Origin: Stachybotrys elegans
Taxonomy: Eukaryota > Ascomycota > Sordariomycetes > Hypocreales > Stachybotryaceae
DNA length: 64,000 nt
Direction of reading: 5' to 3'
Assembly (NCBI GenBank): GCA_020746835.1
Contig: JAGPNK010000007.1
Span: 2,031,501 to 2,095,500 of the forward strand
Below the pieces are notes generated by a model. The model was given only the letters and a program-made list of their open reading frames with translations, made no database searches and had not been told where the DNA came from. Positions 24,081-55,763 of the stretch are shown one piece after another (the stretch's first letter is position 1; each line of letters begins with the position of its first letter). The position numbers and the translations under genes are program-made.

Positions 24081-25010
24081 TCATATCGCGTTCTCCATTC
24101 CGGGTGCCGGCGGAGTTGCAGTATTCGCAGTGTTTGGCAAGGCAGGATTAGAACCCTGTCCCTTGCTGCTTGACGCCAATCCCCGCTTCATCATCTTGCC
24201 CAGGACCGTGACGAGCTCACAGGCATCGTTGAACATGTCGTCGTCCATGCCCTCGGTAGCGTCGTAGACCTCAGCAATCGTCTCCTTGGCGAGTTTGCGG
24301 CTAGCTTCTGCGTCATGGACACATTCGTACAGGAAGGCGGCGTACTCTGTCTTGACCGAGAGTCTCAACGAGTGGGAACCCCAAAGCAGGCTGTCGGCGA
24401 GAGCCATTGCTTCCTGGAAATACTCGTGCGCCATGGGAAGGTAGTCGTTGGCGGCCAGAAGAAAGGTTGGTGGCAGCAAGGCTGACTGAGGTTCGAAGCC
24501 AGGTGGTGGGCCGACAGGTCCGCCCTCGAGGGCATGTGTCGGCTGAACCGAGGACGAGAGAGACATGGCATCGTCCTCACCAGCGATATTCTTACCCTTG
24601 TCGAGCCTGGGCGGTGTCATGACGGCGGCAACCGCCTCAGGAGTCCAATTGGCCATGTCGGAGACTGGAGGGTTGTTGTGGAAGAGGACAAAGATGTGAT
24701 AGAAGCTCGCGCGCAGCTTGTGGGCGAGGACTTTGAGCTCGACGTAGTTGCCCACCATCGGTATGACATACTGCTGCAGCATGACGAGTCCCTCACGAGA
24801 CAGCCATATTATGTGCAGAACGCGCTTGAGAAAGAAGGGAGAGGACTTGAGCTCGGGGCGGCGTTGTTTCTTGGCTGCAACAAGGAGCTGTGCGAGTTCA
24901 ATGGAGAGGCCTAGGATCTTGAAGAGCATGGAAGAGAGTAAGGGGTTGTCATTCTCGACAGCTCTAGCAAGCCTGCCGAGGAATTTCTGGTCTACCTCGG
25001 ACGAAGCCAT
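24081..25010 (-). CDS. Divergent 14-3-3-like protein
   Basis: A single-exon frame of 309 residues from MASSEVDQKFLGRLARAVENDNPLL. I chose the ATG at 25010 over the longer in-frame start at 25106 because the homologues I recall start MA(S/T)SEVDQK. It is all helical. The C-terminal third (RLSVKTEYAAFLYECVHDAEASRKLAKETIAEVYD) follows the 14-3-3 pattern of the last helices, where canonical proteins read NFSVFYYEI and ACRLAKAAFDDAI. It is not a canonical 14-3-3: there is a Pro/Gly-rich linker (GPVGPPPGFEP) in the middle and the classical phosphopeptide lysine/arginine pocket is not obvious. It may be a fungal-specific phosphoprotein-binding scaffold; function unknown. Confidence 0.7.
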   Translation of the reverse strand: MASSEVDQKFLGRLARAVENDNPLLSSMLFKILGLSIELAQLLVAAKKQRRPELKSSPFFLKRVLHIIWLSREGLVMLQQYVIPMVGNYVELKVLAHKLRASFYHIFVLFHNNPPVSDMANWTPEAVAAVMTPPRLDKGKNIAGEDDAMSLSSSVQPTHALEGGPVGPPPGFEPQSALLPPTFLLAANDYLPMAHEYFQEAMALADSLLWGSHSLRLSVKTEYAAFLYECVHDAEASRKLAKETIAEVYDATEGMDDDMFNDACELVTVLGKMMKRGLASSSKGQGSNPALPNTANTATPPAPGMENAI

Positions 25011-49165: not shown

Positions 49166-51037
49166 ATGCGGGAGGTCAACTTTAGCATCCCAAACGTCAA
49201 CAAGGCGTCCGTGGGAATCACCACGGCCCTTTACGACCGCCGGGCTCTCGACTGCACCTCGACCCTGCCGCTCATCAACTCCCTCAACCACCTCGCCTAC
49301 CTCACCACGTCCTCAGCCCGTATCCGAGATATCCTCACGGTCGACGGAGGCATCGAACGACTTGTTTGCATACTCAAGCAAGGCCGCAGCAAGGATATGA
49401 TGGGCATGTGGAAGTGGAATCTTGCCTTCCAGTGTGTCGTCAATATCGGAGTTCGAGGCACGGAAAACGTGCGCACCCGCGTGGTCGAGGCTGACATGGT
49501 CCCTGTCATTGCCACCATTTTGGATAATTACATTAGAGTTGTCGAAAAATGTCGCGAAAAGGCCGAGGAAAGCAAGCAGAAGCAACTGCAGGATTCTCAT
49601 CACCGCCATCGTCACGACCATCGAAACTCGTCCAAGGCTTCCTCCTCCTTTACCAACCGCTCCTCGCGTCTCGATGCTGACCAAAGGTCATTCCGTCGAC
49701 AAGGGCCTCCGCCCTCCATCGACGTGTCTGCTACATATGCAGGCCCGTCCACAGCAGCCTCCCAACAGACTGTGGACCCTGCTCTGCAGTCCGCTCAGCA
49801 CAACCTCACCTCTCCCGAGCGATCAGCCGCAACGCCGAGCCGCCACCGATATAGCTTCCGAGGACCTGAGGGTCGCCACCCCTCCACGACCACGCCGAGG
49901 CAGACCATCCAGCCTTTGGCTTCGGCTGTCTCCAACGTCGAGGCTGCTGACGGATTCGTGCGACCGGTTCGTGATGTCGATCGCCTCGCATCCATGGCGC
50001 CGTTCGGGCCCAGCGATCTGATCTCGCAACCTACCTCCCCCACAACGCCGTTGCCTCCCCCTCAGCTGCGATCTCCTACCGTCCGCCCTGCTTCCATCCT
50101 AGCTCCGACCACCCGACCGCGACGAAGGCCATCTATCCGACATCAGAACTCGACGGCAGCTACTGAGCCAGAGGACCTCAACGTGGATAGCATGCCATCG
50201 GATGAATCCCCTGATGCAGAAATGACTGGTACTGCCGACATCCAGGCCGAGGTTGGGATCCAGGACATCACCATGGAGGATGGCGAGAGCATGCTTACTG
50301 GCACCACGCTTGATCTCGTCCCCCCTACGGTATCGGAGACTCATCCTGACGCTGGTACCTTCAACATCACGCACCGAGGTACTCTTGACGGTAGCCTGGT
50401 CAACACGGGCAACAACACACCCGTTGCCCCTATCAGTCTCTCCCCTAACCGTCCTGCGATTGTCACGCCCCCTCAGCCTACCGTGCCGACCACCTCCGTA
50501 CCCCGATACCTGCTGAACCACAACTTTGCTCCCAACTCCCGAACCATCGCTGCCATGCCGCGAGAAGAAGATGTCCTTATGTCTCTCCAGCTTCTCGCAT
50601 ACGTATCCAAGTACTGCGGTCTCAGGTCGTACTTCCAGAAGAGCCATCTCGTACCTAGACTGGCTATTGGTAAGGAACTGGGAATCGTGGAAGGACAGGA
50701 AGATACGTCGGAGATGGATGACTCGGCGGCTGTTGACCAGGAGTACCTTCTCCCGGACGACTTCAACCTCTTCCCCTTGGTCGAGAAGTTCACCGTGCGA
50801 TATCACAGTACTGATATGCAATACTGGGCTGGCGTTGTCATGCGAAACCTCTGCCGCAAGGACGACACTCGAGGAGGTATCCGCCAGTGCGCCTACTACC
50901 AGTGTGGCAAGTGGGAGGAGTACACGCGCCAGTTTGCCAAATGCCGCCGTTGCCGCCGGACGAAGTACTGCAGTAAGGAATGCCAGAAGAGCGCCTGGGC
51001 TTTCCACCGGCATTGGTGTGTCGCTGCAACGCAGTAA
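49166..51037 (+). CDS. MUB1: SamB/Mub1 MYND-finger protein
   Basis: A single exon of 623 residues. An armadillo-like N-terminal region (MREVNFSIPNVNKASVGITTALYDRRALDC..INSLNHLAYLT) is followed by a long disordered Pro/Ser/Thr-rich middle and a second conserved helical block (EEDVLMSLQLLAYVSKYCGLRSYFQKSHLVPRL). A C-terminal MYND zinc finger runs about residues 575-619 (CAYYQCGKW..CRRCRRTKYCSKECQKSAW..HRHWC). In yeast, Mub1 is the adaptor for the Ubr2 ubiquitin ligase acting on Rpn4. In Aspergillus nidulans SamB controls conidiophore and hyphal morphogenesis. Single-exon structure and the MREVNFSIPN start are typical. The leader is long and CT-rich. Confidence 0.95.
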   Translation: MREVNFSIPNVNKASVGITTALYDRRALDCTSTLPLINSLNHLAYLTTSSARIRDILTVDGGIERLVCILKQGRSKDMMGMWKWNLAFQCVVNIGVRGTENVRTRVVEADMVPVIATILDNYIRVVEKCREKAEESKQKQLQDSHHRHRHDHRNSSKASSSFTNRSSRLDADQRSFRRQGPPPSIDVSATYAGPSTAASQQTVDPALQSAQHNLTSPERSAATPSRHRYSFRGPEGRHPSTTTPRQTIQPLASAVSNVEAADGFVRPVRDVDRLASMAPFGPSDLISQPTSPTTPLPPPQLRSPTVRPASILAPTTRPRRRPSIRHQNSTAATEPEDLNVDSMPSDESPDAEMTGTADIQAEVGIQDITMEDGESMLTGTTLDLVPPTVSETHPDAGTFNITHRGTLDGSLVNTGNNTPVAPISLSPNRPAIVTPPQPTVPTTSVPRYLLNHNFAPNSRTIAAMPREEDVLMSLQLLAYVSKYCGLRSYFQKSHLVPRLAIGKELGIVEGQEDTSEMDDSAAVDQEYLLPDDFNLFPLVEKFTVRYHSTDMQYWAGVVMRNLCRKDDTRGGIRQCAYYQCGKWEEYTRQFAKCRRCRRTKYCSKECQKSAWAFHRHWCVAATQ

Positions 51038-52068: not shown

Positions 52069-53437
52069 TTACCGGGAGGAGATGGCCTTTCTCCTATTCT
52101 TCCCGGGTCGGGTCGCCTTGCTCACACGGCCCTTGCCGCCGGCCTTCATGCGCTTGGGGTCGAAGCCGCTCAGGTCGCCGGCGCTCATGGCGTCCCCGGA
52201 CTTGGCGTGGCGCTTCTTGCCGCCGAAGCCGTACTTCTCATTCTTCTTCTGGCGCTTCGTGTTGGGGCCGCCGATCTGGCCGCGGCCCGAGCCCGAGCGG
52301 GATGTGTGCTTGGAGAGTTCCTTCTCGACGCCGACGTCGAAGAGGTCGGCTTCGGTGGTGGCTTCGCCGCTACCGTGTTCTTGACGCTCTGTAGTGATAA
52401 AAAGTTCATGATCAGCGGCTGCATAGACAGGTGAAGGTCAAGAGGAAGAGGGGGGGGGGGGTAGTTTTGACTTACTTCGCTTCAGCGTCTTAATCTTCTC
52501 AAGCGTCTCGCGCTTCTCCTTCTGGCGCTCCTGCAGCTTCGCAACCTGGACCTTCTTGCCAAACTTCTTGAGGTCGCGGAGCTTGCGGGCCTCGGCGGCG
52601 GCCTTCTTGTTGGAGGCTTCCTGGACGAGCTTGGCCTTGACCTTCTCCATGTGGGCGTCCTCCTTGACCATCTCGGCGAAGTAGTCCTTGGGGCGGGAGA
52701 AGGGGACACCCTCGGCGCGCAGCTTGGCGCGGCCCTGGCGCACGGCCTCGAGGCTCTGTGAGTAAAAGGACAGCTCGCGCTGCAGGTCATCCGACACGTC
52801 AGGGACGGCGCTGGCGGTCTCAGTGGTGGCGGTTATGGATTGGTGGAGCGCAAAGGGAGCGCTCTTGTCTGTGGGAAGGGCTATGCGGTTTAGGGAGGCG
52901 AGAAGGGCGGTTGTATTGTTTATCGTGAGGCGGGTGTGGGGGATGATGTCTTCTCTCTCCTCGGCGTCGAGGTCCTCGAGGTCGGACATGGGAATATCCT
53001 CCTCGTCCTCCTCGTCCTCCTCTTCGTCGTCTTCATCGTCTGCTTTTGGCGTCGCCTTGGTCTTGGGCTTCCGGCGGTCAATCTTCTCTTCGAGTTCGAG
53101 CTCGGACTCGGATGAATCGCTCTCATTGAGCGCATCGAGATCAAGCTGTACAGAGGGGTTAGCAGGCTGCCTCATTGATTTGTGGTGGGGGGAGGGATGT
53201 AGTGCGCACTTGTCGGGCCTCTTCTTCGTCATCTTCCTCCTCATCCTCTTCCTCCTCGCTAGCCTCCTCGTCCTTCATCTCGTCGTCCTCGCTCTCGCTC
53301 TCATTCTCAGATGCCCCGCCAGTCTTGGCTGCCTTCTTCTTCAGCGCAGCCTTTTCTTTCTTCTTCTGCTTCAGCTTCTTGAAGTCGACGCCCTTCTCGG
53401 CGGCGAGCGCCATGCGGAGCTTGCTCTTTGTGACCAT
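52069..53437 (-). CDS. EBP2: Ebp2 rRNA-processing protein
   Basis: Exons 53437-53210, 53145-52476 and 52388-52069 (introns 64 and 87 bp) encode 405 residues. The start MVTKSKLRMALAAEKG is followed by a lysine-rich coil, long Glu/Asp runs (nucleolar style) and the Ebp2 core (IPHTRLTINNTTALLASLNR, LQRELSFYSQSLEAVRQGR, GVPFSRPKDYFAEMVK, then a basic helix). The last exon has EADLFDVGVEKELS, KRQKKNEKYGFGGKKRHAKS, GDLSGFDPKRMKAGGK and RPGKNRRK, all diagnostic. Ebp2 acts in 27S pre-rRNA processing and 60S assembly and binds Rrs1. The second intron carries a G12 run (plus strand 52450-52461) just past its donor, an unusual place that could disturb short-read assembly. Confidence 0.96.
52450..52461 (+). 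repeat. Poly-G run inside EBP2 intron 2
   Basis: Twelve G (C12 on the coding strand), starting 13 bp inside the 87-bp intron, after its GTAAGT donor. It does not affect the coding frame. Confidence 0.8.
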
Positions 53438-54334
53438 GGTGGCGGATTGGTGACAGAATTTGCTTGAGAGGCCTGTATAAAACCTGTCGTTGCTGGGCCT
53501 GGCGGGCTGGTAGTTTTTTGCAGAAAAAAAGTTCGGGATTGAGAGTCCACTTTGATTCTGCCAGCCGCTAAGTCTTGACCGCCTTGGCCCTGATCCACCC
53601 ACCGCCCACCCATTTGAGCATCGATGGATGTCTTCAACTTACAAGCCCAGTCGTGAGACATTCCCTCACTCGACGGCGGGTGCAGCGGAGTGGCAGAATA
53701 ACCATCCGCTAATTGCCGGGTGTCTTAGTTTTGTTTTGTTTTGTTTTTATCCATAGCCTCCTCGGCATCTGCCCGCTCCTATATGGCAGAGGATTGGCCT
53801 CTGTCGCAAGAGTCCAACATCCCATGGCTTTTCCACGCTGCGCCTGAGAGAGTCAGTCCCATCAACTTGGTTTCAGCACAAATGCTTGTCTTCCTACGCA
53901 AACCAGGATAAAGGGTCTTTCAACTACGTACTTGTGACTGCTAACTCATCTAGAACAATGGCTATCCATAACAATGAGCATGCACTTTCACCGCACCAAT
54001 GTCTTTCGAGAACAATATAGTGTCCACGGCTTATTTATTGAATTTAAACATGAGGTTGATACAGTAGCCAAGCCATCCAATCAAATCCCCAAAGACCCAG
54101 ATTTGAGAAATGACACTTTCTCCTCTGCACTAACAAAAATAAAGAACACCAGACGGAAATCTCCATCTATACTCGGGTGCCATAATTCGAAATATGTACC
54201 AAGCCGTGAACAGTTGCCATATCCAGACAGTTCTCACATGTACTTCCATCCAAACATAATTCCCAGGCGATTTCGTGGCCGGCCGATCAGCCCATTGTCA
54301 TGGCCACGGCACTAGGTGGGCAGTATTCGAGGCT
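53438..54334. promoter_or_regulatory. EBP2 promoter / 3' region of the CaaX-repeat gene
   Basis: 0.9 kb between two minus-strand genes. A TTTTG pentamer repeat lies near 53730-53746. Small plus frames (for example 53974-54315) have no protein-like composition. A 3' UTR for the short gene at 54335 should lie at its right end. Confidence 0.4.
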
Positions 54335-54514
54335 TTACATTATGCTGCAGCCGGTGTGCTGGGATCGAACGTCTGGCTTAGCCATGACAGAGCATCCAGT
54401 GTGTTGAGACTTGACGTCGGGTCTAGCCATGATGGAGCAGCCGGTGTGCTGGGACTTGATATCAGGCTGAGCGCCCTTGATGTTGGTGTTTGAGGTGGCA
54501 GTGTTGGAAGGCAT
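54335..54514 (-). CDS. 59-residue CaaX-repeat protein, multicopy pheromone-precursor-like
   Basis: An ATG at 54514 in the context CAAAATGCC opens 59 residues with no intron and no signal peptide. The head MPSNTATSNTNIKGA is followed by three 15-residue repeats, QPDIKSQHTGCSIMA, RPDVKSQHTGCSVMA and KPDVRSQHTGCSIM, then TAA. At DNA level these are 45-bp tandem units at 54425-54469, 54380-54424 and 54335-54379. The protein ends in CSIM, a CaaX box with X = Met (farnesyl type). Each internal copy repeats GCS[IV]M. Ascomycete a-factor-type precursors are short, start MPST-like and end in CaaX. A hybrid type with repeated GC[TS]VM-like motifs has been described in Trichoderma. A clean TATA box and a CA-rich leader imply strong expression. 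Another small farnesylated protein is possible; pheromone is inference. Confidence 0.8.
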   Translation of the reverse strand: MPSNTATSNTNIKGAQPDIKSQHTGCSIMARPDVKSQHTGCSVMAKPDVRSQHTGCSIM

Positions 54515-54654
54515 TTTGTAGGTTTTGTTGGGTAGTTGGTGAGCGGAGTAGAGAGTTTGTATGAGTGGTTTGTGATTGTAATCCTTGTTGTCTTTTGCTG
54601 ATGATGCTGAGATGAGAAGGGATCTGCTCGGAGAGGGACGGGATGGCATCGACC

Positions 54655-54662
54655 TATATATA
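54655..54662 (-). promoter_or_regulatory. TATA box of the CaaX-repeat gene
   Basis: The minus strand reads GTATATATAGG, 141 bp upstream of the ATG. The sequence between is a CA/CT-rich leader (CATCATCAGCAAAAGACAAC, ACAAAACCTACAAAATG) typical of highly expressed fungal genes. Confidence 0.75.
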
Positions 54663-55140: not shown

Positions 55141-55763
55141 TTAGAAGCGGGAAAAGGGAAGCCTGTTGCACCGTATGAGATCGTCAGCGATTGATGATGG
55201 GTGGCCTCATCGACGTTGCGCATCATGTCTGAAGTGAGGACTTACCATTTTCCTCGGAGCGTAATGACGACCCAAGAGGCGCCAGTGTCATCAACCTCCT
55301 TATCCACCTTGGTCGAGAAGCAAATTGCACTCATGATTCCATCTCCAAACTTCTCATTCATGATGGCCTTGTACGCATAGCCGTAGTTCTGGACAACCTC
55401 ATAGAGGCGGTAGATCAGAGGCTCGACTGGAGGCATCGGACCAGCACGGCCCCGGTCGGGGAACGAGGTCAATTGTCGCTCCAAGGCCTCTTTGGGGAGC
55501 TCCAAGAGCGCGGATAGACGCTCCATATCTTCGGGGGATGCCGTGGCTTGGCCGTAGAACATGGCAGCACACGCCACTTCACTACGGTCTAGATGCTTCG
55601 CAATGGCCTCGAAACTGAGGTTCTTGGTCGCCTTAGCCTCAAAGAGCGTGGCGCAGTGAGGTGGAAGCCTCTCGGCAATGGTAGGCTGGCACAATTAGAA
55701 TCAAAGTGACATGAGAATCGTCACACGTACATCAAGAGTGGCAATACGGCCTTCGGACGCCAT
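55141..55763 (-). CDS. CYN1: Cyanate hydratase (cyanase)
   Basis: Exons 55763-55731 (33 nt), 55685-55246 and 55162-55141 (22 nt) encode 164 residues; introns are 45 and 83 bp. The tiny first exon gives [11 protein letters not shown] and the tiny last exon completes RGKWLPFSRF, the canonical C-terminus. Cyanase converts cyanate and bicarbonate to ammonia and CO2 via carbamate. Catalytic residues R104 and E107 (IYRLYE) and S130 (GIMSAICFS) have the same spacing as Arg96, Glu99 and Ser122 of E. coli CynS. The N-terminal helical domain ([25 protein letters not shown]) is the usual HTH-like fold of the decamer. A model without the 22-nt exon would stop one codon after RGKW. Confidence 0.96.

Follow-up and report, generated by a model that had tools for sequence, protein, structure and literature searches.

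A small gene on the minus strand of the window, that is, of the whole stretch of 64,000 nucleotides analyzed here, very probably encodes an a-type (lipopeptide) mating pheromone precursor of the repeated-CpaX, h-type-like form; we assign a probability of about 0.92 to this reading. The assignment is based on the locus, the form of the precursor, the partner genes detected in the assembly, and the synonymous bias between the repeat units. Multi-CpaX a-type precursors are already known, and the gene adds a further example. The gene and its surroundings comprise the following features (positions within the window):

54335..54514, minus strand: probable a-type pheromone precursor gene, 59 codons plus TAA, single copy found
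54473..54514, minus strand: 14-residue Ser/Thr/Asn-rich head MPSNTATSNTNIKG, by eye without a signal peptide
54428..54472, minus strand: repeat unit 1 AQPDIKSQHTGCSIM
54383..54427, minus strand: repeat unit 2 ARPDVKSQHTGCSVM
54338..54382, minus strand: repeat unit 3 AKPDVRSQHTGCSIM, the end of which is the C-terminal CpaX/CaaX box CSIM
54655..54662, minus strand: TATA box TATATATA, about 148 bases upstream of the ATG
55242..55763, minus strand: cyanate lyase gene, upstream neighbor; C-terminal exon 55242–55562 (PF02560, E 2.2e-30), 5′ exon and intron by eye
52438..53437, minus strand: EBP2 rRNA-processing homologue, downstream neighbor; main exon 52438–53244 (PF05890, E 1.6e-63)
49166..51037, plus strand: MYND zinc finger protein (PF01753), with relatives annotated as samB or MYND protein

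Open reading frame and repeat structure

The open reading frame consists of 59 codons followed by TAA, runs from 54514 down to 54335, and needs no intron. A sequence-only reading had proposed the frame without naming a strand; it lies on the minus strand, and the corresponding plus-strand frame is interrupted by a stop. The length of 59 residues holds, whereas the head comprises 14 residues instead of 15 (14 + 3 × 15 = 59). The three proposed 15-residue repeats, each with SQHTGCS[IV]M, and the protein end exactly at CSIM were confirmed from the translation. The units fit the pattern A[QRK]PD[IV][KR]SQHTGCS[IV]M, with SQHTGCS[IV]M at residues 21–29, 36–44, and 51–59, and the terminal CSIM is directly followed by TAA. 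The TATA box claimed upstream of the frame is present as well. The ATG context of the pheromone frame is CTACAAAATGCC. A second in-frame ATG at 54649 would extend the protein to 104 amino acids; since it adjoins the TATA box, translation more likely starts at 54514.

With 59 amino acids, no signal peptide visible by eye, and CSIM as a C-terminal CaaX/CpaX box, the protein has the features of ascomycete a-type precursors, which are smaller than 100 amino acids and free of a signal peptide. The head is hydrophilic and starts with MPSNTATSNTN. An S/T-rich N-terminus is common in Sordariomycete a-factors according to the available sections of a Leotiomycete paper (PMC10569646), in which most a-factors end in CTVM and CSIM and CSVM are among the other ends. 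A hydrophobic N-terminus is asked of a-factors in PMC13037118, whereas the head of the protein described here does not look hydrophobic. Tyrosine is absent from the 59 amino acids, and thus the Gly-Tyr motif conserved near the C-terminus of Sordariomycete a-factors (PMC10569646, available sections) is lacking; this motif is outside the h-type consensus GC[TS]VM. Reading through the 59-aa protein revealed no dibasic pair (KR, RR, or KK). In the 1 kb upstream, which partly overlaps the cyanate lyase gene, CAAAG pheromone response elements of the U. maydis type were counted once in forward and twice in reverse orientation, which is uninformative as a raw count. A 113-codon frame on the plus strand (53974–54315) overlaps the likely 3′ UTR of the pheromone gene and is probably fortuitous.

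The frequency of comparable frames was determined in the window, in randomized sequence, and in the assembly. The window contains 647 ATG-started frames of 20–120 amino acids. A loose CaaX end was found in two of them, and the last six residues are repeated internally in a single one, which is the pheromone frame (in its 104-aa form). The only other CaaX-ended frame of this size lies approximately 30 kb from the pheromone gene. Forty copies of the window resampled with a first-order Markov model yielded 28,889 frames, of which 73 had a CaaX end and none had such internal repeats. The pattern GGNTGYNNNRTNATGTRR occurred at 30 places in the whole assembly compared to 10 for the control read backward. 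A true stop codon was present at 16 of the 30 places, and nine of these 16 belonged to an ATG-started frame of no more than 100 codons (two just MM). Judged by eye, only the pheromone gene contains repeats among these places, and DNA and protein searches detected one copy of it in the 43.4 Mb assembly. A 19-codon frame ending in CSVM (MKIQNAGLETLLDVGCSVM; L044, contig C45:1909190–1909207, minus strand) is probably a chance occurrence.

The 59-aa protein has no Pfam match, and a protein database search with it yielded no entry sharing three words. A further protein search with an alignment (the 59-aa protein and two rows of the h-type motif) gave no match either; T. reesei HPP1 was likewise not returned, and because HPP1-like proteins were not recovered, the motif-based search is uninformative on absence. 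The available sections of PMC10569646 state that a-factor genes are commonly left unannotated, which would explain the empty protein database searches. In the running text of the literature, strings of the peptide core matched a single paper, an unrelated one on rice. GC[TS][IV]M strings combined with "pheromone" gave no hit in literature full text, where the motif is often printed in bracket notation and much is therefore missed. A literature search for Stachybotrys mating type and pheromone returned nothing related, as judged by title and the start of the abstract. The lack of a Pfam match and of a database homologue would be in accordance with an unrelated small prenylated or low-complexity protein, or with a chance frame. 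We consider this highly improbable in view of the a-factor neighborhood, the repeat structure that did not occur in any random frame, and the synonymous bias between the units.

Locus and relation to known precursors

The neighborhood of the gene, which corresponds in gene content to a published a-factor locus, is the strongest evidence for the putative function. The genes for the MYND zinc finger protein, EBP2, the pheromone precursor, and cyanate lyase are all located within 6.6 kb. The 5′ piece of EBP2 (53159–53437) has no Pfam match and was taken by eye as the first exon. Among the best 120 of 1448 matches, the MYND protein is 85% identical to that of Stachybotrys chartarum, 81% to that of Paramyrothecium foliicola, and at most 79% to those of other named Hypocreales; outside the Hypocreales, Pleurostoma (75%) is the best named fungus recognized among these 120 matches, many of which are nameless. 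This one protein points to the Hypocreales and probably to the Stachybotryaceae.

Schmoll et al. (2010; PMC3068285) place the a-factor gene of N. crassa, M. grisea, and G. zeae close to cyanate lyase. As landmarks of the locus in Fusarium, Epichloe, and Neurospora, they use EBP2, MYND, and two hypothetical genes. Since order and orientation vary at the published locus, synteny refers to gene content only; the landmarks compared were MYND, EBP2, and cyanate lyase. By gene content, the S. elegans gene lies at the locus found in many Sordariomycetes, and not in Trichoderma or Ceratocystidaceae. It is located downstream of cyanate lyase, as are the candidate pheromone genes of M. grisea and C. globosum, and in the same source the F. 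solani precursor is placed between cyanate lyase and EBP2 and those of other Fusarium species within the syntenic area (PMC3068285). This published neighborhood strengthens the earlier proposal of a multicopy CaaX pheromone precursor, which is still the best reading.

In T. reesei, the neighbors of hpp1 are sec23 and the gene for an "uncharacterized 14-3-3 domain protein" (PMC3068285). A Trichoderma-type locus (sec23, hpp1, 14-3-3) adjoining the S. elegans gene is not supported, because all six Sec23_trunk matches fall on contigs other than that of the window (C23, C5, and C34 instead of C59). A divergent 14-3-3-like protein is encoded about 30 kb away at 24081–25010 on the minus strand (PF00244, E 4.2e-7, below the Pfam cut-off). 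With the Sec23-family matches on other contigs, its tie to the Trichoderma hpp1 locus is unproven.

According to Schmoll et al. (2010; PMC3068285), h-type precursors contain three copies of (LI)GC(TS)VM, the last of which is located at the C-terminus. The protein described here has three motif copies and the last one forms the C-terminal CaaX box, whereas the strict motif [LI]GC[TS]VM is absent; the units read TGCSIM, TGCSVM, and TGCSIM. GCS and the final M fit the h-type motif, the L/I position is occupied by T in all three units, and the V position by I in two of them. The previous classification as a hybrid (h-type) precursor is thus borne out for the architecture and not for the motif. The same authors thought h-type members with inexact motifs possible (PMC3068285, accessible text). 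Among the h-type precursors covered there, Kex2 sites occur only in T. reesei HPP1, where changing them did not abolish function; one is also present in a single-motif protein of T. atroviride. Kex2 sites, which the S. elegans gene lacks, are therefore not a defining feature of h-type precursors. The sequence-only reading had correctly noted their absence and deduced an unusual processing from it, but such an absence is not unusual in this class.

Similar to T. reesei HPP1, the protein is small, lacks a signal sequence, has three near-identical GC[ST]VM-type motifs with the last one as CaaX box, and is encoded by a single copy. It differs from HPP1 in its motif (TGCS[IV]M instead of [LI]GC[TS]VM), the lack of Kex2 sites, its length (59 vs. 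48 amino acids), and its locus, which is characterized by cyanate lyase and EBP2, whereas hpp1 is located between sec23 and the 14-3-3 gene. The precursors of Fusarium (F. verticillioides, F. oxysporum, and F. solani), compared by description and not by alignment, are likewise from Hypocreales and have a repeated motif and a terminal CaaX box. In contrast to the S. elegans locus, where the other CaaX frame of the window is about 30 kb away, F. solani has a second CaaX frame at its locus. The precursor of rhodotorucine A from the basidiomycete Rhodosporidium toruloides was likened by description.

Each repeat of the S. elegans protein contains the conserved peptide and its own CpaX, which is the feature of multi-CpaX a-factors. 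Such repeated CpaX precursors are reported for Fusarium, Verticillium, and Huntiella (PMC10182648). In Ceratocystidaceae, one gene encodes one to five mature peptides of 7–10 amino acids, and a separate CpaX follows each of them (PMC13037118). The form of the S. elegans protein, with 59 amino acids, an S/T-rich MPS head, a terminal CpaX, and repeats that each have a CpaX, agrees with both descriptions. The repeats of Huntiella begin with arginine, and a K/R-SQHTGC peptide would likewise start with a basic residue. However, the peptide sequences and the loci in Huntiella and Ceratocystidaceae are different, and up to seven a-factor genes are present per Huntiella genome. The Ceratocystidaceae belong to another order.

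Codon differences and proposed processing

The repeat units differ by 12 (units 1/2), 11 (1/3), and 16 (2/3) bases. These correspond to 7, 4, and 7 synonymous versus 3, 3, and 3 non-synonymous codon differences. In a simulated neutral null, defined as random mutation of equal extent and ignoring codon bias and gene conversion between repeats, so few non-synonymous differences were obtained in fractions of 0.001, 0.0012, and 0 (1/2, 1/3, and 2/3; 5000 runs each). Within the nine-codon core, the ratio of synonymous to non-synonymous differences was 5:1 (1/2), 2:0 (1/3), and 5:1 (2/3), with fractions of 0.0042, 0.0122, and 0 under the neutral null, and the only amino acid change is between I and V. 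NG86 estimates of dN were 0.11, 0.17, and 0.18 (1/2, 1/3, and 2/3); dS was 1.07 for units 1/3 and not estimable for the other two pairs. All copies therefore appear to preserve the peptide, internal CS[IV]M included, and the mostly synonymous codon differences favor a function of each of them.

In the a-factor pathway, terminal farnesylation is accompanied by removal of the last three residues, methylation, and N-terminal cleavage. Following this pathway, the C-terminal CSIM would be farnesylated, SIM would be trimmed by CaaX proteases, and the end would be methylated, while the N-terminal part of the precursor would be cut off. A basic residue precedes SQ in all three units. The residue before PD is basic in two of three units and then followed by proline, and a basic residue followed by proline is a poor cleavage context. 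This comparison points to SQHTGC or [KR]SQHTGC as the likeliest peptide, so that the mature lipopeptide would most likely be SQHTGC(farnesyl)-OMe or a slightly longer K/R-SQHTGC form. Export may occur through a Ste6-type pump, and the STE3 receptor of the partner would sense the peptide.

The most uncertain part of this explanation is the release of the two internal copies, which would need an endoprotease cut after CS[IV]M (or at A[RK] with trimming) and another at the single [KR] before SQ. For h-type precursors, the protease of internal release is unknown according to Schmoll et al. (PMC3068285, accessible text). All three copies might be released as farnesylated SQHTGC by cuts after each CS[IV]M before prenylation and at [KR], a Kex2-independent and rhodotorucine-like route that we regard as tentative, at somewhat less than even odds. 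It is also conceivable, again with a chance below one half, that the C-terminal copy alone is processed and the internal repeats are a spacer resulting from tandem duplication. Farnesyltransferase needs a C-terminal CaaX, and the units have no dibasic sites between them, both of which are in accordance with such a spacer. The dispensable Kex2 sites of T. reesei HPP1 (PMC3068285) and the canonical ascomycete a-factor, which carries only a terminal CAAX (PMC10182648), point in the same direction. Yet the internal copies retain C, S, [IV], and M despite diverged codons, with I/V as the only change in the core, and precursors of Fusarium, Trichoderma, and Ceratocystidaceae likewise have a CpaX in each repeat (papers cited above), which argues against a mere spacer.

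Mating system of the strain and significance

The assembly also contains other components of the mating system. A STE3-family receptor is encoded on contig C1 (E 3.6e-61 for the translated gene) and a STE2 receptor on C61 (E 6.7e-89). The alpha-pheromone precursor on contig C2 (L051:754–1446, minus strand) has 230 amino acids with five identical copies of WCMRPGQSCW and KR sites; the string WCMRPGQ had no match in the running text of the literature. Genes of the Prenyltrans family are present at three places, among which the farnesyltransferase beta subunit was not singled out, and the best of three matches to the ICMT methyltransferase reached 102 bits.

Eight HMG-box matches were detected in the assembly, two of which (L017 and L018, contig C6) are the halves of one intron-split HMG box. 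This MAT1-2-1 candidate (L064:4772–5482, minus strand) has the intron inside the HMG box and adjoins an Exo_endo_phos gene, which we take to be APN2, encoding an Apn2-like endonuclease. With an intron-split HMG box beside an Apn2-like gene, the strain looks MAT1-2. The top HMG match (L011) was rejected as a MAT gene, since it reads NHP6-like by eye. A profile search with MATalpha_HMGbox gave no match in the assembly; it was run without a positive control and does not show absence. Male fertility of a T. reesei MAT1-2 strain requires hpp1, the transcription of which is not strictly mating-type dependent (PMC3068285).

Both pheromone genes and both receptors are thus present in the genome, which would also suit a pheromone with a predominantly non-sexual role in autocrine density signaling, as reported for Fusarium oxysporum, in a fungus where mating is rare or absent. 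However, mating heterothallic ascomycetes carry the same four genes, and the set does not discriminate between the two uses. F. oxysporum co-expresses both pheromones and both receptors in one mating type, according to the available text of PMC13097639. We regard predominantly autocrine signaling as rather unlikely; it is compatible with the explanation as a mating pheromone.

As a mating pheromone precursor, the gene adds a multi-CpaX a-pheromone from the Stachybotryaceae, located at the cyanate lyase/EBP2 locus. This is consistent with repeat-bearing precursors having evolved in place from an ordinary a-factor gene. The diverged codons, the nearly identical peptides, and the unit-specific residues outside the core make it a convenient case for mass spectrometry, which could address the question of whether internal CpaX copies are ever prenylated.
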